Positions 3,914-56,230 of a stretch of DNA of 64,000 bases are shown here, piece by piece. The DNA comes from Micropterix aruncella (lineage: Eukaryota; Arthropoda; Insecta; Lepidoptera; Micropterigidae), in the NCBI GenBank assembly GCA_944548615.1, contig OX155951.1, forward strand, positions 23,098,606 through 23,162,605, written 5' to 3'. How positions within the stretch are numbered: the stretch's first letter is position 1; each line of letters begins with the position of its first letter. The position numbers and the translations under genes are program-made. The notes under the pieces were generated by a model that ran no database searches, had not been told where the DNA came from, and was given only the letters and a program-made list of their open reading frames with translations.

Positions 3914-4959
3914 TCTTCTTATATATAAAAATGAATCGCCGTGCGTTAGTCTCGCAGGATCTCGGAAACGACTGGACCGATTTGAATTATTTTTCTTTTA
4001 TTTTGTTTGGCTTGATTCAGGGGTGGTTTTCAAAAAAAAATATTAAGAAAAAAACCAAAGGCTAAAAAATCGAAACAGCTAAAAAATCGAAAAAATCTAA
4101 ATTAGTACTTCTAGGGATGGCCACTTCGTATTTCTGTCAATAGATGGTGCTCTCTATATTTTCTAACAATAGATTCTATTGTTTGACAGCTACGCCATTC
4201 ATAATTCATTCCGCGCGACTGTGTGAAATTGTTATTACATTTAACGTCGTTTTTTCTTTTAAAAAAAGGTAGTGGGATTGGAGAATAGATTTGTTCACTT
4301 TGATCAGCCATTATATCAAGGTAAATAGACTTTGCAGGCTTATACATAACTACAAATTTGGCCTTAGTCTGAGGATTTCAATATTGTTAAGTTCTCAAGG
4401 AATGTTCGACAGATTTGAGTGACTGAAAACAATTCCGTGTCTTTTTACAGTGTTCATTATAATGCCGAGGAGAATAGGTAACATAGGTCGTCGAAGTCAG
4501 TCAAATGCGCGGCGATCTACTTCACGTGCAAGCCGCACTGATGACCAGCGAGCGACGGATAATGAAAATAGTCGTATTGGCATTGTCGGAATTATGTTTG
4601 AGAGCCACTGAAAATGAACGACAAGCGAATACATTGAGAATGCAACAATTTCGTGCACAACATACACAACGCCAGCAATCACGACAAAATCAACATGACC
4701 GATTGCGCCGTCGCAGTGTTCCTGTCAACCTGGAACAAGCGGCATTCCATTACGATCCGGAAATCGAAAACGGTGCGGAGAGATCAGTAGCAAGACTTTC
4801 ACCTTCCCTTCTCCGACAGACTTACTTGAGTGGATTACTTACGTGTGGATTTGAAATTTTAACATCTTAGTCTGCTGTGAACATGCCCTTCAAATGATAA
4901 AGCTCTTTTCGTTTTCCTGTCAGGTCCTATAGATCGTAGACAACAGCCGATTTATTTTT
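3914..4959 (+). mobile_element. Helitron, autonomous-type fragment
   Basis: It starts with TCTTCTTATATATAAAAATG after an A (3913), the same 5' end as the Helitron at 5896. The two share about 280 bp at the 5' side, including GAATCGCCGTGCGTTAGTC, GACCGATTTGAAT-ATT and ATTGTTTGACAGCT. Unlike the short element it runs into a broken Helitron protein gene at 4462. No CTAG 3' end was found before the F2 element at 4960, so it is 3' truncated or interrupted there. Confidence 0.6.
4462..4870 (+). pseudogene. Broken Helitron (RepHel-like) N-terminal coding fragment
   Basis: The ATG at 4462 opens a frame beginning MPRRIGNIGRRSQSNARR that stops after about 50 codons. After a +1 shift near 4600-4612 the protein resumes with ENERQANTLRMQQFRAQHT and continues to VNLEQAAFHYDPEIEN. 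An Arg/Gln-rich low-complexity leader followed by an AAF-YDP motif is typical of the start of insect Helitron Rep-helicase proteins (Helitron_like_N). No Rep HUH motif or helicase domain follows, so only the N-terminal tip survives and it is frameshifted. The family call rests on remembered motifs. Confidence 0.55.
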
Positions 4960-5508
4960 AACCGACTTAAAAAATAGGGGGAGGTTATAAATTCGATCGT
5001 ATTTTTCTTTAAATGTTTGTTACCTCAGAAATCCGTCATTTATGAATTGCTTTGGAAAATTATTTTTATTTGAAAGGATGTACTTCCAGATTCGTCACAT
5101 CTTTATCAAAATTTTGTTCTGATGATGTGATCCATGAGGAATTGAAGGAACTCCTCAAATATTAACATATGAAGTTGAAAATTTACATGTTGGTTCAGCT
5201 CCGATGACAATGCATTTTATATAGGAAGCATGCCCTGATTCTATACCCAGGATTAGCTCCCGACGAGGGAACTCCTCAGCGGTCAACAGCACAGTCACGA
5301 AATTGTGTATATGCATTCAATTATGACAGCCCGATCTAAGTTTCATCAAGACAGGACTGCGGCGCCCAGGGATGGCTTCCAACGAGGGAACTCCTCAACG
5401 GTCAACAGCACAGACACGAAATTTTGTATACGCATTAAATTATGATAGCCTGTTCTACGTTTCACCATGACATAGCTGCTGCACTTAATAAAAAAAAAAC
5501 CTCGGTTA
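4960..5508 (+). mobile_element. TIR element, family F2, copy 2
   Basis: This is the second copy of the element at 1256-1803. It begins AACCGACTTAAAAAATAGG and ends near ACCTCGGTTATT, and carries the same two tandem units (about 5248-5366 and 5367-5485). It sits immediately downstream of the Helitron protein fragment and probably inserted into it. Confidence 0.7.
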
Positions 5509-31104: not shown

Positions 31105-32437
31105 ATGGCACCGTCATTCGCCTCCGTAATTTGTAAAAAATGTGTAAAGTGTACGGAGTGCAAAAAGACGTTCCACATGACTTGCACTTCAAACAGAAAG
31201 ATCGGCAAGACTACTTTAAAAACCTGGAAATGTGATGTTTACTTGGAGGACAAAGCACCGAAAACAGCACATACCCCTCTTTCTATCAGTGCTATGAGTG
31301 CCTGCAGCAGCAATCCTAACATCTCTCTCCATTCTCCGTTAATTAATCTCGCATACGATATCGAGATCAACACGCTAGCTGACCAGTTCACTCATGTCGG
31401 AGACTACTTTCAGCAACAAACAGGCCGAAACCGCAGCTGAAAAGCATGCTGAAATTGCCGCTCAAAATTGCGCTATCTTAGAAGCCATTACCATCATTTC
31501 AAATAAATACGATGAAATAAACCAACGGATAGCAGACATCGACAATAAGTTTAAGGTAGTGAAAAGGCTGGAGAACTCTAACATCAACCTGTCAAAGCGG
31601 GTGTCTTTCCTGGAGGAAAAGATCGATCTTATTGAAGCTCACAAAATCGCAACGGATGTAGAAATACGTGGTGTGCCTGAACATCCTCGGGAAAATCTGT
31701 CGCAATATATATTGGACATAGCGAAGACCATAGACTTCAATGGGGACGTTAAACAAATTATATCAATGGAGAGGAAACACAACGCAACCGCTGCAAGAGG
31801 GAATCCGAAATCTATAATTATAAAATTTGCAACCCAGAGCCAAAGGGATAATTTCTTAACCTCTACAAAGGCTTTCGACAAAAAAAGCAAAAATAATAAC
31901 GAAAAACTTAACTCTAGCCATATTAACTTGCTATGCGATAAGCAACCAATATTTATTTCCGAACACCTGACGCAGCGAGCAAAGTACATATATATGATCG
32001 CCAGGAAATTTGCGAAAGAGAAGCACTTTGCTTTTTGCTGGTTTAAAAACGGAAAAATATTTCTCAAAAACAAGAAAACGCTAAAACTTTTCAAATCAAA
32101 AATGAATCGACCTTGGATACTATGTCTTAAGTCTTCGGTAGAACGCTTTGCTATAAATTCCCTTGAACAAAAAACGGCTTTCATTAAAATCTTTCAATTC
32201 GTTCTTGAAGTAGCTTCAGTATGTATGAAATTATTATTAATAATATATAATTTATTAACTATTTATATAACAAATAACTCTCACTATTTTATACTAAAAT
32301 ATCTAACAATTATTTTGGAAAATGTGTTTATCTGGTATGCATTTTCACTTATGAGTATTGCACATGAACGCTGTAAATTGCACTTTTTGCAATGCATCGA
32401 GAACCTATTCCCCCGGTATTGTCTTCAATATGACTGA
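31105..32437 (+). pseudogene. LINE L-C ORF1 (PHD-like, coiled-coil nucleic-acid-binding protein)
   Basis: ORF1 proteins of CR1-type LINEs bind element RNA. The ATG at 31105 opens a frame with a PHD/zinc-finger-like motif (CKKC, CTECKKTFHMTC, WKCD) that ends at 31440. A second frame (31394-32437) continues the protein: Ala/Glu-rich stretch, coiled coil (RIADIDNKF...LSKRVSFLEEKIDLIEA), then the RRM-like core DVEIRGVPEHPRENLSQ, DVKQIISMERKH, and C-terminal QRAKYIYMIARKFAKEKH. The two pieces overlap and need a frameshift near 31400-31440. After about 32130 the frame leaves recognisable ORF1 and reads AT-rich sequence. The order of domains is typical; the frameshift makes it non-functional. Confidence 0.7.
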
Positions 32438-44042: not shown

Positions 44043-44492
44043 TGTAAAGGATGTAATACCACTGCGAAACTCCGGGTGTGTATAAAGTTAAATGCAGCTG
44101 TGGTTTCGCCTATGCTGGACAAACTAAACGACCCATAGCTACTCGACTGATGAAACACATCAAAGCTGTTAAAAATGTTCAACAAGAAAATTCGGCGATC
44201 TAGGGACATATACAACGAAAGTAGCCAAAGGCTGCAGTTTCAAAATCCCATTGTGCAATCCAAAAAACAATTTTACTTCCCTCGCATGATACGGGAAGCA
44301 ATCCAAATAAGAGGAACCCCGAACTTTAATAGAGACGACGGTTACAAACCCTCTTCTACGTGGAACCATCTTCTTAAAATGTTCCCACTGCCAATCGCCG
44401 AGCGCAAGGACGTAACACAAGATACAGTGAGTGTTGTGTGCACGACGGATTTCCGAAATTGGCGCGCGCCGAGCCCGCATCCCTACCACAGT
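44043..44492 (+). pseudogene. Penelope-like element, GIY-YIG domain, left part
   Basis: Penelope-like retroelements encode RT plus a GIY-YIG nuclease. Here the nuclease domain starts at 44075 with GVYKVKCSCGFAYAGQTKR (the 'GIY' and 'YIG' strands appear as VYK and YAG) and continues PIATRLMKHIKAVKN with the catalytic-type Arg. A stop and frameshift at about 44203 follow, then NPIVQSKKQFYFPRMIRE and TPNFNRDDGYKPSSTWNH, matching the family's C-terminal 'REAIEI..HP.NFNR..GY' block. The element is cut at 44492 by the DNA transposon and resumes at 46984. A second copy lies at 54154-54782. Confidence 0.75.
44491..44492. other. Left GT target-site duplication
   Basis: GT at 44491-44492 is repeated at 46984-46985. 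The related uninterrupted sequence at 54614-54651 has a single GT at the same place, supporting a 2-bp duplication. Confidence 0.6.
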
Positions 44493-44526
44493 TGAATGCA
44501 TGATTGTAAAAACCCACTTCAGACCA
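44493..44526 (+). repeat. Left terminal inverted repeat
   Basis: Starts TGAATGCATGATTGTAAAAA and continues CCCACTTCAGACCA. It differs from the right TIR at two positions (C/A at 7 and T/C at 26) and includes one reversed copy of the GGTG-TTTTTACA motif. Confidence 0.8.
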
Positions 44527-44700
44527 AATGCAAAAGTTTCAGAAAATCAATGAAAACTGTCTGGTGTAAAAAAAAATTAAGTCCATGTTTTTCTTTATTT
44601 ACTATTTACGTTGAAAAATATTTAATATATGATATGTTAAAAAGTGGTAGCATAATATATTCATAGATATTTTTATTTGATTTTTTTAAGTATTGGGATA

Positions 44701-44746
44701 AGGTGGATTTTTACAGTCATCGTGTACAAGGTGTGTTTTTACAATC
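44701..44746 (+). promoter_or_regulatory. Left subterminal motif pair (putative transposase-binding sites)
   Basis: Two direct copies, AGGTGGATTTTTACAGTC (44701-44718) and AGGTGTGTTTTTACAATC (44729-44746), sit 28 bp apart. The first shares a longer block, GGATAAGGTGGATTTTTACA, with 46804-46823 at the other end. Repeated subterminal motifs are known transposase-binding sites in several DNA transposon groups; that role is inferred here. Confidence 0.6.
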
Positions 44747-44777
44747 AAAGTCCAATTTGTACCAATGTTAAACAATA

Positions 44778-44783
44778 TTTATT
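44778..44783 (-). terminator. Polyadenylation signal of the transposon gene
   Basis: AATAAA on the minus strand lies 21 nt beyond the stop codon. It is the first such hexamer downstream and is suitably placed for the mRNA of the 613-codon ORF. Confidence 0.55.
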
Positions 44784-44803
44784 TTCATAAAAAACTAACA
44801 GAA

Positions 44804-46645
44804 TTAATCTAATTCTTCATCTTCGACATTTTCAGCTGTTGGCCATTGCAATATTTCGTCCCAGAACTTAATTTTTTCGTCTTCAGGTACAAACTGAACA
44901 CATTTTTTCAGGTCCTGCATCTTCTTTGCATTAATGCAGAGCTGCCTTGATCCATATGCAGGTTCATTCGGTAGCGATACGGTAATCTGTGGCCTTATTT
45001 TCAACAAGAACGTATGCTTTGTCAGTCCATCAATGAATTCCTGCGTTTTTACCGGCACGTCACTGCCAATCTTTTTGAAAGTGAGGTGATGGAACTTTGA
45101 GATACTGAAGCTTACTTTCTCCGTTCTCGGAATTCGCCGATCCTTTGTTTCGAGGGATAGTGCAGTCTTTTTGAAATGTTGAACCCACCATTTTTTAAAT
45201 TCTATCACATCCTCTCCGCTGACTAAGTGAACTGTAAAAAAATCACTCTGCCTGCTCGAAGATACGATCAATTCCATAAGTTCCTGTACACTGTACAGCC
45301 TTTCTTTACGACGAAGGCTTCTTTTTATAATACCAAATGCTCTATCACACGGCAGAAAAGAATGACCACGCATCGGAAAGATCTGTTGAATTTTTTTGAA
45401 ACGCCCACTGTCAACTAGGGCCATATTCATTCGTACCGATGTATTGTTTTTATTCTGACCGGCGCAGTTATCAGAAAAGAGCATTAGTTCCACCACTTTT
45501 TTGTCAACGTACTCTTTAATGTATGTCATAATAAACGAGCATACTTCGTTTGGTCCCTTTTTTGCTTGCCCTTCATGATATACGAACAGGACATTTTTAC
45601 CCGTTTTCAAATTATGGATGCAGAAGATAGAGATGCTCAGTTGCCGAAAATAAAATATTTCTTGCACTGGAATCATTGGCAGTGACACATTCTGCATGTA
45701 ATCGTAGCAAATTCCCAAAAATGTTTCATCTTCTTGAGATCTTTGCCTTGCTTCTTGAAGTTTATTATAGAACTTCTTAGCCCTCTTTTTGTGTACTAGC
45801 TTTTCGGCCAAAGCTACCTTTTTAGCTACGTCGTTCAGGGTTTTCGAATTGATTCTCAAGTCTAGACTCTCGCAGAGGCAGCACGTATCTACTGCTGGGC
45901 GCCCAAAGCGAAGAGCGAAGTTCTCCTTGAATATTTTATTATAATATTCGTACTTAATCCTAGTTCCTGGGTATTTTTCCTTATAAAGTCGAAACATTTT
46001 TTTTACTGATAAGTCAGCAGGAAGATACTTTATTATGCCAGAAGAACAGTGGCTCTCTTTTGCCGGAAAACAGGAAATATGAGAGATCACTGCAGTGATT
46101 TCATCACTAGACATTGCATTGACCGTTTTCGATTTCCCTCTCTTGTCTTCCGGTATTTTACCCAAGACCAACAAGTCACGAAGCCTCTTAACACGGTCCT
46201 TAGTAATACCAAACAAGCTAAGAAAAGCCGAATGGCATACATCTTTCTTCTCATTACCAATTTGAACGGTGTATGTAAACACTTTCTGTCTCAATGGGTT
46301 TTCCTTCAGCACTCGGCGTCGTTTTATGTCCTTACAGGATATTAACCCCTGGAGATAGATATCTTGTTCATTTTTAGTCGTCAAGTTATATAATTTGGCA
46401 AGGTTTTCTAATTTGTCATTTTCGGATATGATTTCCCAGCATTTTTTAGCACACTTGCATGGAGGTCCTATTGTCTTAGCCTGTACAGTTTTATTTTTCG
46501 CCGTCACATAAGTTTGCCCATGAATACGTGCTTGTTTGATCTTATTCCGAGAATAATCAGCAGAGTTGTCACGTCGTTTTTTAGTGCGTGTTTCACCCAA
46601 AGAGGACTCACCTGGGTTTTCCTCCATTTCAGCTCTCGTTTTCAC
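44804..46645 (-). CDS. Putative transposase, DUF7869-like, 613 aa
   Basis: Intact single-exon ORF, ATG at 46643-46645. Residues 1-60 are basic and charged, likely nuclear and DNA-binding. A CKCAKKC cluster lies at 63-69. CHSAFLSLFGITKDRVKRL follows at 137-155. CCLC is at 255-258, then a charged helical region at 270-308. The core has GICYDYMQN (Asp315), VYHEGQAKKGPNEV, LMLFSDNCAGQNKN (Asp392), and RGHSFLPCDRAFGIIKR (Asp434). Three aspartates in beta-strand/helix contexts fit an RNase H-fold DDE/D nuclease. I recall the YHEG/SDNCAGQNKN/GHS-D signature from insect and other invertebrate proteins carrying DUF7869. The C-terminus is Trp/Asp/Glu-rich. Flanking TIRs and subterminal motifs argue that it is the transposase of this element, not a host gene. 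The catalytic role is inferred; the open frame suggests recent activity. Confidence 0.75.
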   Translation of the reverse strand: MKTRAEMEENPGESSLGETRTKKRRDNSADYSRNKIKQARIHGQTYVTAKNKTVQAKTIGPPCKCAKKCWEIISENDKLENLAKLYNLTTKNEQDIYLQGLISCKDIKRRRVLKENPLRQKVFTYTVQIGNEKKDVCHSAFLSLFGITKDRVKRLRDLLVLGKIPEDKRGKSKTVNAMSSDEITAVISHISCFPAKESHCSSGIIKYLPADLSVKKMFRLYKEKYPGTRIKYEYYNKIFKENFALRFGRPAVDTCCLCESLDLRINSKTLNDVAKKVALAEKLVHKKRAKKFYNKLQEARQRSQEDETFLGICYDYMQNVSLPMIPVQEIFYFRQLSISIFCIHNLKTGKNVLFVYHEGQAKKGPNEVCSFIMTYIKEYVDKKVVELMLFSDNCAGQNKNNTSVRMNMALVDSGRFKKIQQIFPMRGHSFLPCDRAFGIIKRSLRRKERLYSVQELMELIVSSSRQSDFFTVHLVSGEDVIEFKKWWVQHFKKTALSLETKDRRIPRTEKVSFSISKFHHLTFKKIGSDVPVKTQEFIDGLTKHTFLLKIRPQITVSLPNEPAYGSRQLCINAKKMQDLKKCVQFVPEDEKIKFWDEILQWPTAENVEDEELD

Positions 46646-46780
46646 CAGTACGCAGCAAATTTTAATTTAATTTGTGTAATACAAGTAATCCGTGTCCGTT
46701 ACAGTCACCTCAGTCGTTCAAAATAACGTTAGAAACGTCAATATTGACAGCTGATATTTTCAGGTGTTGCCACATGTTTG

Positions 46781-46890
46781 GTTGTAAAAAAACACCTCAT
46801 CCAGGATAAGGTGGATTTTTACACTCATTGAAATATTCGCGCTTCTATAACTGTGGGATGCTTACATGACTGAGGTGTGTTTTTACACTC
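46781..46890. promoter_or_regulatory. Right subterminal motif cluster
   Basis: Three motif copies precede the right TIR: GTTGTAAAAAAACACCT (46781-46797, reversed), AGGTGGATTTTTACACTC (46809-46826) and AGGTGTGTTTTTACACTC (46873-46890). The cluster lies 136-245 bp upstream of the ORF start, so it could bind transposase and also affect transcription of the gene. Both roles are inferred. Confidence 0.6.
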
Positions 46891-46949
46891 GAACAGTTTG
46901 TCTTGCCATAGAGATTACAAATCCGCAATAAACGGTATTTCGGAAAAAG

Positions 46950-46983
46950 TGGTCTGAGGTGGGTTTTTACAATCATTCATTCA
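46950..46983 (-). repeat. Right terminal inverted repeat
   Basis: Read on the minus strand it begins TGAATGAATGATTGTAAAAA and continues CCCACCTCAGACCA. It includes the motif copy at 46957-46974 and is followed by GT, the second half of the target duplication. Confidence 0.8.
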
Positions 46984-47140
46984 GTTATAGTTTACGCAGT
47001 GGTGGCAGCGGTATGCAGCCTATCCGCGGAGCAACGGATTGACAGCTCTTTCAGTCTACCCCAGACAACGGCGGTTGCAGTATTGCCGAAACGTCGGGTG
47101 TTACACATTTCACGCGGTAAATTCGTCTTTTATCTTATTT
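46984..47140 (+). pseudogene. Penelope-like element, right part after insertion
   Basis: This continues the 3' untranslated end of the Penelope-like fragment. It reads GTTATAGTTTACGCAG, GGCGGTTGCAGTATTGCCG and AAACGTCGGGTGTTACA, which parallels GTTATAATCTGCGTAT, GGCGGTTGCAACAACTCTG and AAACATCGGGTGCTACA at 54624-54755. The GGCGGTTGCA...GCCGAAACGTCGGG block is a recurrent motif near Penelope-like ends. A hammerhead-like core is conceivable but its CTGANGA part is not intact. Confidence 0.6.
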
Positions 47141-48063
47141 ATAATGTCCGCCTTCTCCGTTTTGTCAACGATAGCAATACATATAGACGCGCTGACGCGG
47201 ACGACGTGTACACGAGACACCATGCTACCAACATTTTACAAAATAAATATGATAAATAGAGGAAGGCTCAGTCTACGTAGTTATATATTTCTTCAAGCGA
47301 TATTGCCACTTGTTTCTTCTACAAAAAATCAGCATCGGGCTTATTGAACTCAGTATGAAAAGTTCGTTTTCCTGTAAAATTTCGCAAAATGAAACTTGCT
47401 ATTAAGTAATTAAAAAATATTGTGACGTTCTTATTATTTATCTTTCTCGTTTAATCGTTATTTAATTGTAAAATTTCTATTGATGTCGTTTTTGATAAAA
47501 CACAGATTGTAATTCCCTTTGCGTCTCATCGCCCGAGGACTGAGTTAAGAGATTCAGGGCCTATTAAATTTTAATCGTATTTTAAACCTTCCAATAATAC
47601 CTCGGATTAAATGTAAAGTCTGCAAGTCTGATTACGTCGAAAATTCTGAAATCTATGAAAGATGAAAGATAATGGTAGAGAATTAGGATCAAGGCATTTG
47701 AGTGAATAATAAATTCAGATAATAACGAGATTGCTAATTCTGCAACGAAATCAAGTCGATTCAAGTTATAACAGCGCAATGACTATTTTATGACGACACA
47801 GCCGTGTCGTTTAGCGTGTAACGATTACGGTTATATTATTACGGCAGTTATGGTTCCTGGCTACGCTTATATTATTAAGGCAGTTAAAAAGCAATTACTG
47901 TTATTGCTATAAATGTAATAATATCGAAGTACAGCTAGTTCCCTAAACAAAATCTATGCTACATGTATGTCTGATCTCACAGCGCACTTAGATCAAGGTA
48001 ATCATATAAAAGAAAGATCAATTTCAAGCACTGATTGCGACCTAATTTCGCTATAGAAATACT
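47141..48063. other. Intergenic DNA, nothing recognised
   Basis: No gene recognised. A near-duplicate TTATATTATTACGGCAGTTA / TTATATTATTAAGGCAGTTA occurs at 47831-47850 and 47868-47887. Confidence 0.45.
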
Positions 48064-48256
48064 TATCTTTTATTTGCATTACAGAAAGCTGTCGGCGCGT
48101 CGCTTAAGCTGGAATAGGTACAACTATCTCGCGGGATGGTATTAATCCATTAACCGAAAAAAGTATAAAGGAGAGCGTTTTATTAAGGAATCTATTTAGA
48201 TGATTCTTTAGCTGAATTCGTATTTTATTTCCCCGTCTACCGTTATCAATTGTTGG
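48064..48256 (+). repeat. Interspersed repeat, family G, copy 1
   Basis: This matches 53605-53795 in the opposite orientation, with TTATTTGCATTACAG, TGTCGGCGCGTCGCTTAA, GCTGGAATAG, TTAATCCATTAACCGAA, GCGTTTTATT and GAATTCGTATTTTATTTCC followed by CCGTCTACCG. It is immediately followed by an R1 copy. Confidence 0.65.
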
Positions 48257-48545
48257 GGGATATTAAATGTTTTTTAACACTTTTGTCACATCTTGCCATG
48301 ATCAAATGGTCCTGCATACTAAATTTTAAAGTAATCGGATTATGCGTTTGGGCCCTATCGTGTAGGAGTACAGACATACACACAGACAGAGAGATAGACA
48401 CACTTGACTTGCTCAGACTTGATCAATCTGGTAATGGTCTTAATCGTCTCGGGGGGCTCAAAATGGATACATCCGTCTTCATTTCGAAAAAAAAATTAAC
48501 ACGTTCAGAATACTTTCCCTCCTGCTGATACCAGGAAAGTAAAAT
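48257..48545 (+). repeat. Interspersed repeat, family R1, copy 3
   Basis: It shows CATGATCAAATGGTCCTGC, ATACTAAATTTTAAAGTAAT, CGGATTATGCGTTTGGGC, CCTATCGTGTAGGAGTACAG, CATACACACAGACAGAGAG and the terminal ACTTTCCCTCCTG...CCAGGAAAGT. These correspond to the second half of copy 1 at 7820-7975. The first half is missing. Confidence 0.6.
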
Positions 48546-52436: not shown

Positions 52437-53604
52437 TCTGAGAAAAACGTTGATTGGAATATTATGTATAGTGTAAGTAAATGACAGACGGATGATTAGT
52501 CACCTATACAATACGAATATGATAAAGGAAAATGTTGTTTATAACTATGTTTATAGTGAAATGACGTAGGGCCCTTACTAATCTGAGATTATAATAACCA
52601 CCACTCCTAACGTTATTAGAATATAACCTAAGTTTTTGCAGGGTAGGTACCCTTAACTATATCCCCAGCGTATTTATTGTGCTGTAGGTACTCTTAACAA
52701 TATCGAATTGTAATTCCATCTTGGAATACTTTCAACCAGTGAAACGAAATTCACTACGTTATTCGCGCTCGATCAGTCGTTATTACGCTTTAAATCGACG
52801 ACAGTGCCATCTATTAAAGCGCGACAAAACTCACTCATATGTAGAAGTTGTAAAGTTTTTGTTGTTATGAGTAAGCTGACCGTCAGCTGTTAGTTTGTAA
52901 CTGCTGGAACGCAGCCGCATCCATTGTATATGTATATGATCGATTGCGTGGATCGCTCTTGCGAGACGCCATTAATAACGTATAATAGTATAACTGTTAC
53001 ATCACTGCTTAGAATGTTGTTACGTCTAATCGAGAAAAATCTGTACGTGTCTTTCGGACGTAATTGAGACAACATACACATGTAATTGAGTAATACGAGT
53101 ACAATTAGTGTGTCTTTTCCGTTGTATCATTGCGTCTATTCGATATTGCCATTTTAGTGTAGAAATCAGGTAGGTCATTTTGTCAATAACCATATTTTTT
53201 ATATGATATGATAAAAGTTTACTCTCTGAACATGTTTAAAGTTTCCGTTTTACAAATATTGAACGAGTCAATTTCTGAACGTCCATTTAACATGGATAAT
53301 TTAATTGTGTGCATAATTTTATCACAGCATAAGGAAGACGCTGTATTGACATTGAGACATGTATTAATGTTCTTTTTATTCTTTGGATGAAAATATTTTT
53401 TTTTATATAGTTTAATCTAAGGCTTATTTTGGCGACCCTCCAGTTTACCTAGAAATTCCTTCGAATGCACGATATTAAAATAATAACGAGAAAGCATTGC
53501 TATGGAAAATCTACTACTCTTATTCGATGTCTTTTACATCCAGCCATGTAGCTAGATATCTGTCGAGACACTGAGAGAAAAAACCCATTTAATATCGCGT
53601 AACA
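52437..53604. other. Intergenic DNA, nothing recognised
   Basis: No gene. CTCTGAGAAAAACGTT at 52437-52452 and CACTGAGAGAAAAAA at 53569-53583 resemble the family M end and may be solo remnants. Two similar blocks, GTAGGTACCCTTAACTATAT and GTAGGTACTCTTAACAATAT, lie at 52644-52663 and 52684-52703. Confidence 0.4.
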
Positions 53605-53795
53605 ATTGCTACCGGCAGACGGGGAAATAAAATACGAATTCAATTAAAGAAACATCTAAATTGCTTCCGAAATAAAACGCCCCGTTTTTCCTTCTTTCGG
53701 TTAATGGATTAAGACCGTCCCGTGCGATGGCTGTAACTATTCCAGCTTTAAGCGACGCGCCGACACGTTTCTGCAATGCAAATAAGAGAGAAGAA
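53605..53795 (-). repeat. Interspersed repeat, family G, copy 2
   Basis: Reverse partner of 48064-48256. On the minus strand a frame runs through most of it (MANSSLLFALQKRVGASLK, AGIVTAIARDGLNPLTERR, KNGAFYFGSNL). Copy 1 does not keep that frame. TTTGCATTGCAG before the conserved GTGTCGGCGCG block looks like a splice acceptor and is nearly retained in copy 1 (TTTGCATTACAG). Confidence 0.6.
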
Positions 53796-54153
53796 TTTGC
53801 CATTCCGGAATTCGGTCGCGATCGGCGCTTGAAATCAATCTCTTTAGAGCGATTTTAGATTAAAGCGTGCCGTTGATCTTATTATTTATTATCTGTGAGA
53901 TCAGAAATACCAACAGTTGTATGTAGTAAATAGTCTTTAATTCGATATTAATATATTTATAGTAATAAAAGAAATTGCTCGCTTCATTGCCAAGAAACCT
54001 TTACCACCAACACAATATAACAGAAATTGTTACGCATTAAACATTGTGCGATAGATCGTAGACCAAATGCATACATGAAAACCACTAATTCCAATAACGT
54101 GAAACATTAATAAATCAAGCTATAATGCATTGGTCATGTTAATGGAGACTAAA
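53796..54153. other. Intergenic DNA, nothing recognised
   Basis: No gene or repeat partner found. Confidence 0.4.
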
Positions 54154-54782
54154 TGTAAAGGATTTAATACCACTGCAAAGACCGGGGGTGTTTAAAATCG
54201 AGCGCACCTGTGGGTTAGCCTACGGTCGACAAACGAAACGGCCCATAGCCACTCGACTGATAAAAGACATCAAGGCTGTTTAAAATCTTCAGCGAGAAAA
54301 TTTGGCGATCTGTGATTACATATTAGATAAGGAAACTGTGCTATCCAAAGAAAAAATTCCGTTGTGCTATCCAAAGAACAAAATTACAATTTCCCCGCAT
54401 GAACTAAGAAACAATTGAATTGAAGAATACCCCGAACTTCAATAGAGTCGACGAGCTTAAATTTTATACTACGTGGAACCCTCTTTTAAAATGTTCCCAA
54501 TGCCAAACAAGTAATACAGTGACTATTGTGAGCAGTGAGTGTTGTGTGCAAGATACAAGGAATGTTGTGTGCACGGCGGCGGCATTTCAAAATGCACGAG
54601 CGCTGAACCCTCGCCTTACCACCGTTATAATCTGCGTATTAGCGTCAGCGGTTTTCTGCCTTCCTGCTGAATAACAGATGATGATTCACAGCACTTCAGT
54701 TTACCCTGAACAAAGGCGGTTGCAACAACTCTGAAACATCGGGTGCTACAAACTTCATGTGGTCAATTTGTTTTATCTAATA
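54154..54782 (+). pseudogene. Penelope-like element, GIY-YIG remnant, copy 2
   Basis: This copy parallels 44043-44492 plus 46984-47140 without the transposon. The nuclease part reads GVFKIERTCGLAYGRQTKR, PIATRLIKDIKAV and then a stop. Later TPNFNRVDELKFYTTWNPL corresponds to the NFNR block. A short internal duplication, GTGCTATCCAAAGAA, occurs at 54330-54344 and 54364-54378. ACCGTTATAATCTGCG at 54621-54636 preserves the site where the DNA transposon inserted in the other copy. Many stops and indels make it older and more decayed. Confidence 0.7.
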
Positions 54783-56230
54783 TATATAAAGTCAAATAAT
54801 AGCCAAAGTCTTCGATTTCATAAAAGACTAAATGGTCCAAACATACAAGACAAAAAATAAAATAGTAAACAACGAAGCTAAATGCTTGTAAAAATATTAA
54901 TTTTGGAAGTAGAACCGATTATTATCGAGAATTAATTTGTGCATTGGCAAAACTGCATCAGAGCTGTCAAACTTGTGAACCGCCGCTCCGCGTTTGATAA
55001 AGCTTTGAGTATTTTTCCGAGCGATTGTACTATGAAATTATAGCAATTATTTTTCGGTTGTGATCCTGAGCGGATTAAGGTCAGGAACTTTGCGATATCA
55101 AGTTATTTTTAGTAAAAAAATAACTGTTAAGCTCGACGCTGTATTGGGGCGCAAGAGATATACTCATTGGATGGTTGAATGGAAAGTGCGGTTTAGAGGT
55201 TATGTATTGCAGCGTGCTGAGGTATGTTTACCTAGGTTGTACCTATTCAGTAGGTACACCAAGGCGCATTGAGATAGTTGTGTCAAAGAGGAAACTGGAA
55301 AACTGTAGCCTGATAACTGCTATCTCCTCCTTGAGTGAAACCTGATATTTATCATCGCTCTCAATCGAACAAGCGAAAGAGAAACGGCATGGAATAAAAC
55401 AGATACTTATTATTTGCTAGATTTAAGTTAGTAATATTTTTTTCAGGAACAATGATAGCCATAATACGGTGATGCAAGTATTTTCCCCAATAACGAAAAA
55501 AATATATACAACGTGACTTAGGAATTACGAAAGAAACACACTGGAGAAATGCTTGAACAGCAAGACTCTTGCAACCCAGTAGAAAAATATTCAAGTTTCT
55601 CGAAGGAAATCACAGGACGATCACAATATAACTTAAAACCTACGGGATAAATACGCCTGTCACATTCGTCTCATTTGCCTACTTACTCCAGGGATACCAA
55701 TCGAAAAGTAATAAGATCGATACAGGTAGAAAGATTATCTCAATCCTGACAAAGGATATTTAATTTTACAAAACGAAAGAGGAATGGAAATAATTGGCAC
55801 AAGACAAAACCAAAATGTTAAAAGCAGAACAGGAAGTATATAAATTGGAGAAAACTAGCGATGTGTAATAGACAAGTGGATAACCGATTAGAGAAAAAAT
55901 CAAACAAAAACATGTAAAGATACAGAATATACTAAATATTATGGATGAAAGCGCTAAGTTACTAAATAATTGCTGCTCTCACAATCGTAGATCCTCACCT
56001 CCAATTCTCCTTCCGATATCACCTGTAATTTGCTGGTTTACTAGTCGATTGATTTACCCATCCCGTCCTCCTTAAATGTAGGTGTTTCTCAATCTTAAAA
56101 ATGAGCCGCCTAGTTTATATGGTTTACTGTCTCAGCGGCACTTCTGGCTGGTGTGCACAATTCTAACATTCATTCATTCATTGGAAGTAGAAGCGATTAA
56201 AAATGATATTATATAATGTTGCAACAACTG
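54783..56230. other. Intergenic DNA, nothing recognised
   Basis: No gene recognised. A 70-codon plus-strand frame at 55060-55272 lacks a known motif. Confidence 0.4.

Follow-up and report, generated by a model that had tools for sequence, protein, structure and literature searches.

What kind of mobile element, if any, is built around DUF7869, a Pfam domain of unknown function, and has that element moved recently? The question is raised by 64,000 nucleotides of the genome of the moth Micropterix aruncella (assembly GCA_944548615.1, contig OX155951.1, positions 23,098,606 to 23,162,605 of the forward strand), the whole stretch being called the window here and positions being counted within it. 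A sequence-only reading had proposed an intact transposon around a DUF7869-like protein, possibly representing an undescribed group. Our analysis upholds the transposon, which has terminal inverted repeats (TIRs) at fixed ends, 4-bp target-site duplications, an empty site and many copies, and we are confident in reading it as an autonomous DNA transposon of the cut-and-paste kind, with an Asp-Asp-Asp (DDD) transposase of RNase H fold, most likely of the Sola2 type.

A transposon with exact ends

The element, its ends and the repeat that it interrupts lie as follows.

44494..46982, minus strand: complete DUF7869 transposon, 2489 bp, with ends set by the empty-site alignment and the genomic copies
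44490..44493, no strand: left copy of the target-site duplication, AGTT (empty-site alignment, genomic copies)
46983..46986, no strand: right copy of the target-site duplication, AGTT (empty-site alignment, genomic copies)
44494..44526, plus strand: left TIR, 33 bp, starting GAATGCATGATTGTAAAAACCCAC (arm comparison, empty site)
46950..46982, minus strand: right TIR (empty site, copy comparison)
44043..44489, plus strand: left flank, a remnant of the repeat that the transposon entered, matching 54154-54506 and 54549-54626
46987..47130, plus strand: right flank, where the same interrupted repeat continues; the second copy ends near 54793

The decisive proof of the element is the empty site, together with genomic copies that end at the same two points. 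A second copy of the interrupted repeat within the window serves as the empty site: when the flanks are joined with a single AGTT, they align to it without a gap at the junction, and the score of the joined flanks, 179, equals the 70 of the left flank plus the 109 of the right. We take the interrupted repeat to be Penelope-like, from what appears to be a GIY-YIG-like motif in a translated stretch; a Pfam search of the repeat gave no match at E <= 0.1.

The TIRs had been described as 34 bp long with 32 matching positions. That count is correct for the arms 44493-44526 and 46950-46983 (32/34 identical, 94%), but the outermost base on each side is part of the target duplication, and the element therefore runs from 44494 to 46982, with true TIRs of 33 bp that are identical at 31 positions. 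The right TIR of the window copy differs at base 6 (GAATGA), where all 23 other copies compared have C. Exact inverted matches between the element ends reach 18 bp at most, which is weak evidence on its own: of 100 simulated windows, 3 had a run of this length spaced 500-6000 bp apart, and other repeats give the real window eight further listed inverted runs, 18-26 bp long.

The TIR contains a motif, TGATTGTAAAAACCCACYTCA, that is found seven times in the window when up to three mismatches are allowed, every time inside the element, with 0.02 occurrences expected. There is one copy at each end, with two further copies near the left end and three near the right, all located by motif search.

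44501..44521, plus strand: terminal motif, left end, proposed transposase-binding site
44699..44719, minus strand: subterminal motif copy
44727..44747, minus strand: subterminal motif copy
46779..46799, plus strand: subterminal motif copy, opposed to its neighbour at 46807..46827
46807..46827, minus strand: subterminal motif copy
46871..46891, minus strand: subterminal motif copy
46955..46975, minus strand: terminal motif, right end

Copies in the host genome

A search of the host assembly (1.079 Gb, 742 contigs) with the window protein gave at least 74 genomic matches, 15 of which span residues 1-607 at 99-100% identity, 11 of them without a stop. Thirty loci were fetched; after removal of three duplicates and of the three loci without an alignment of 2400 bp (L019, L021 and L026), at least 24 distinct genomic copies of at least 2400 bp were left, and both ends are kept in 23 of these, the left end being absent from L016. 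The protein is thus encoded by many TIR-bounded copies and is not the product of a single-copy gene lacking such repeats. A perfect 4-bp duplication flanks 20 of the 24 copies (ATAT 8, AATT 3, ATTT 3, AGTT 3, ACAT 1, AAAT 1, AGTA 1); the one at L011 is uninformative, as that copy lies within an AT repeat. The first 24 bp of the TIR, with up to two mismatches allowed, occur 79 times in the genome, and the reversed control does not occur.

Pairwise differences among the 24 copies have a median of 0.42% (range 0.24-0.77%, 276 pairs). The copies carry 119 private variants and only 5 shared ones, the star-like pattern that a recent burst from one or a few sources leaves behind. Judged from these sequences, copies of the window family moved recently, in agreement with what the intact frame and similar ends of the window copy had already suggested.

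Shorter elements keep the same ends as the window family. Two TIR pairs are only 746 and 744 bp apart, and the short elements that they enclose, both flanked by AATT, are 98% alike. A third one, which is non-autonomous (L053, G000:C24:20995671-20996765), is 1095 bp long, has the ends GAATCGATG / GAATCGATGATTG, and is flanked by an ATCT duplication; its termini are intermediate between those of the window family and those of the two families described next.

Related families in the same genome

Another twenty loci, whose proteins are 44-46% identical to that of the window family, fall into two extra families: B, of about 2.9 kb (L031-L037), and C, of about 2.64 kb (L038-L050). Copies within each are nearly identical; the family C loci are 99.5% identical over 2.64 kb across two provisional subgroups, and hence form one family. 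The TIRs of B and C start GAATCGTT and begin GAATC, so that the termini of all three families read GAATC/G, with GAATG in the window family. Both ends are present at the expected size in 17 of the 20 loci (B 7/7, C 10/13). A perfect 4-bp duplication is found at 16 of these 17 (AAAT 4, ATTT 4, AACT 3, AATT 2, ACAT 2, AGTT 1), L035 being the sole exception, which amounts to 15 of 16 independent cases because L031 and L032 go back to a single insertion that was duplicated. By arithmetic from the base composition (35% G+C), a chance 4-bp match would be expected in about 0.5% of copies. When the three families are pooled, the 36 perfect duplications have A at position 1 in 36/36 and T at position 4 in 35/36; 25/36 follow the pattern AWWT (W, A or T) and 35/36 the pattern ANNT (N, any base).

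In three loci, L033 from family B plus L040 and L046 from family C, the match to the first ~55 residues lies apart from the main frame, upstream of it. This suggests an intron following about residue 55 that is probably retained in both families, without a counterpart in the window family. A further DUF7869 lineage is seen at L019 (G000:C11:17709251-17714035), where an open frame of 635 amino acids (aa) without a stop is 69% identical to the window protein.

The probable transposase gene and its predicted fold

Two features of the window belong to the gene.

44804..46627 including the stop codon, minus strand: intronless transposase gene, 607 aa, DUF7869 (PF25273), with proposed catalytic residues D309/D386/D428
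44778..44783, minus strand: AATAAA, a possible polyadenylation signal directly past the stop codon (sequence scan)

The gene is uninterrupted, as the sequence-only reading had it, with 607 codons counted from the ATG in an open frame of 620; no open run exceeded 207 codons in any of 30 windows simulated with a Markov-1 model. No other ATG-started open reading frame (ORF) of at least 150 aa was found inside the window element. The protein matches DUF7869 in Pfam (E = 6.1e-15, 55.8 bits, cutoff 26), as do all 39 aligned members. No integrase Pfam match is listed for any of the 39 members, and no integrase, mariner or MULE match for the window protein or the aligned members; no NCBIfam model scored above its own cut-off, no sequence relative was found in the PDB, and no mention of DUF7869 was found in the literature searched.

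At E <= 0.001, 342 protein clusters were found with the window protein as query and 539 with a distant member; the best 120 of each were listed, and 201 homologues were fetched altogether. Among the matches listed, DUF7869 proteins with a named source come from beetles, stick insects, a moth, true bugs and a cockroach, placements that we presume except for that of Bacillus rossius. Several of the insect proteins carry the label "uncharacterized protein", as though they were host genes. Those of the stick insect Bacillus rossius, compared here as proteins, share 43-44% identity with that of the window; seven of its records are 99.2-100% identical to each other and apparently lie on at least four contigs.

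The AlphaFold model of the window protein has an RNase H-like core that resembles those of retroviral integrases and mariner transposases. In the predicted fold, the places expected of a DDE/D triad are taken by D309, D386 and D428, whose putative apposition is read off the succession of strands and helices in the model. The same three aspartates had been singled out earlier as the catalytic triad, under numbers six too high (315, 392 and 434). Among the 201 homologues they are invariant (D309 in 200/200 ungapped, D386 in 201/201, D428 in 200/200 ungapped), as are C249 and C252 (201/201 each). Because the model combines an RNase H-like core with three invariant aspartates at the expected places, it is very probable that DUF7869 is the catalytic domain of a DDD transposase and that the protein carrying it is the element's transposase, as first proposed. 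The likeness to known systems is distant: in the rows shown, the cores of retroviral integrases and of Mos1/Metnase (mariner) are 9-15% identical to the window protein. Mariner duplicates TA, whereas the duplication here is 4 bp, and the third catalytic acid of retroviral integrases is Glu, whereas that of the window protein is Asp.

Several observations count against this picture. Other acidic residues are as conserved as the proposed triad, or nearly so (D89 185/185, D247 201/201, E253 201/201, D161 199/200). Foldseek by itself is weak, with a best E of 3.4e-4 and low global TM-scores, and the root-mean-square deviation given by VIA-align is 9-18 A for Mos1 and many integrase rows, because those rows extend past the core. 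Among the genomic copies, 4 of 24 lack a perfect duplication (L002, L005 and L009, where 2/4 bases match, and L016, whose left end is lost), and the window copy has 8 private substitutions in addition to its changed right TIR base. Outside the TIRs, the short elements of 744-746 bp resemble the ends of the window element at only ~73-79%, and are thus relatives of it, not fresh deletions. Finally, the cut-and-paste mode is taken from the class of the element.

Sola2 or a separate superfamily

Sola elements, as characterized in a review, have DDD transposases, 4-bp duplications, lengths mostly of 2-9 kb and TIRs of 11-1124 bp, and Sola/Sola2 was reported in 2009 (PMC10741241). For amoebozoan Sola2 elements, a paper on Fanzor proteins gives AT-rich AWWT duplications (ATAT, AAAT, ATTT), a transposase of 888 aa and TIRs of 12-21 bp (PMC3627910), and Sola elements are also reported from mosquitoes in another study (PMC7728395). 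The window element agrees with these descriptions in its predicted DDD-type triad, its 4-bp AT-rich A..T duplications, and its TIR and element lengths. We therefore favor the view that what Pfam lists, unlabelled, as DUF7869 is the catalytic part of Sola2 transposases, and that the element, which works like Sola2, is probably Sola2 by descent. The match is one of features with published descriptions; the amoebozoan transposase is longer than the 607 aa found here, and the TIRs of its elements are shorter than 33 bp; and 4-bp duplications are also made by Ginger1 and piggyBac (PMC10045372).

Alternatively, DUF7869 could define a separate, unnamed DDD superfamily that has converged with Sola2 in the length and composition of its duplications. 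The silence of the literature searched, the lack of an NCBIfam model or PDB relative, and the size and diversity of the family, with its hundreds of clusters from either query, would all suit such a group, yet a DDD transposase with 4-bp A..T duplications is what the Sola2 description contains, and a family so widespread would probably already be listed in Repbase. We consider this unlikely. An insect superfamily of its own might be recognized by GAATC/G termini, A-N-N-T duplications, a D-76-D-41-D spacing, a zinc-like C249-x2-C252 and subterminal arrays of putative binding sites; we hold the existence of such a superfamily to be doubtful. The family in this genome is so young that its copies may be mobile even now. 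The initial suggestion of an undescribed group is likewise doubtful, and more likely wrong, because a DDD transposase with 4-bp AWWT-like duplications corresponds, by description, to published Sola/Sola2.

It is very improbable that the DUF7869 gene is a passenger or a domesticated gene moved between its repeats by another transposase, an idea to which the predicted nature of the protein's catalytic role lends some room. In each of three families, two of them only 44-46% like the window family in protein, this gene is bounded by matched TIRs peculiar to the family and flanked by the shared A..T duplication; the triad is invariant, and the window element holds no other ATG-started ORF of at least 150 aa.

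Other superfamilies were compared by their duplications. The target duplication of piggyBac is TTAA, which is found in 0 of the 36 duplications. That of hAT is 8 bp, which the 4-bp duplications here do not match; nor do they match those of Merlin, also 8 bp (PMC10045372), or the 2-bp TA of Tc1/mariner (PMC10741241). For MULE/MuDR the published range is 7-12 bp (PMC10741241), or 4-10 bp in a broad sense (PMC10045372); the duplications here fit the broad range only, and no MULE Pfam match is listed. Ginger, with its Gypsy-type integrase, fits in the 4-bp length, and the fold alone cannot separate it; none of the 39 members has an integrase Pfam match.

Proposed mechanism

In a Sola2-type model, the N-terminal part of the transposase, which is helical, weakly winged-helix-like at about residues 172-242, and carries the invariant C249/C252, would bind the terminal and subterminal motifs and pair the ends. 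D309, D386 and D428 would hold two metal ions, and the ends, once cut at GAATG, would be inserted with a stagger of 4 bp into a target of roughly symmetric A..T form. Gap filling by host repair would then give the 4-bp duplication, while failed repair could give rise to shortened, non-autonomous copies. The useful result is a functional reading of DUF7869, as a likely transposase catalytic domain, for a domain of unknown function found in several hundred protein clusters; the exact ends, the target preference and the near-identical recent copies make a transposition test practical.

Neighboring features of the window

Inverted arms of ~400 bp (47890-48275 and 53578-53979), 75% identical and ~5 kb apart, mark a decayed long-TIR element that adjoins the transposon. 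Elsewhere, a direct repeat of ~535 bp (1248-1781 and 4952-5487) is 82% identical between its copies and has shorter repeats inside. A 347-aa ORF at 31394-32434 (plus strand) has weak Baculo_FP matches below cut-off, which we take to be of the type seen in LINE ORF1-like proteins.
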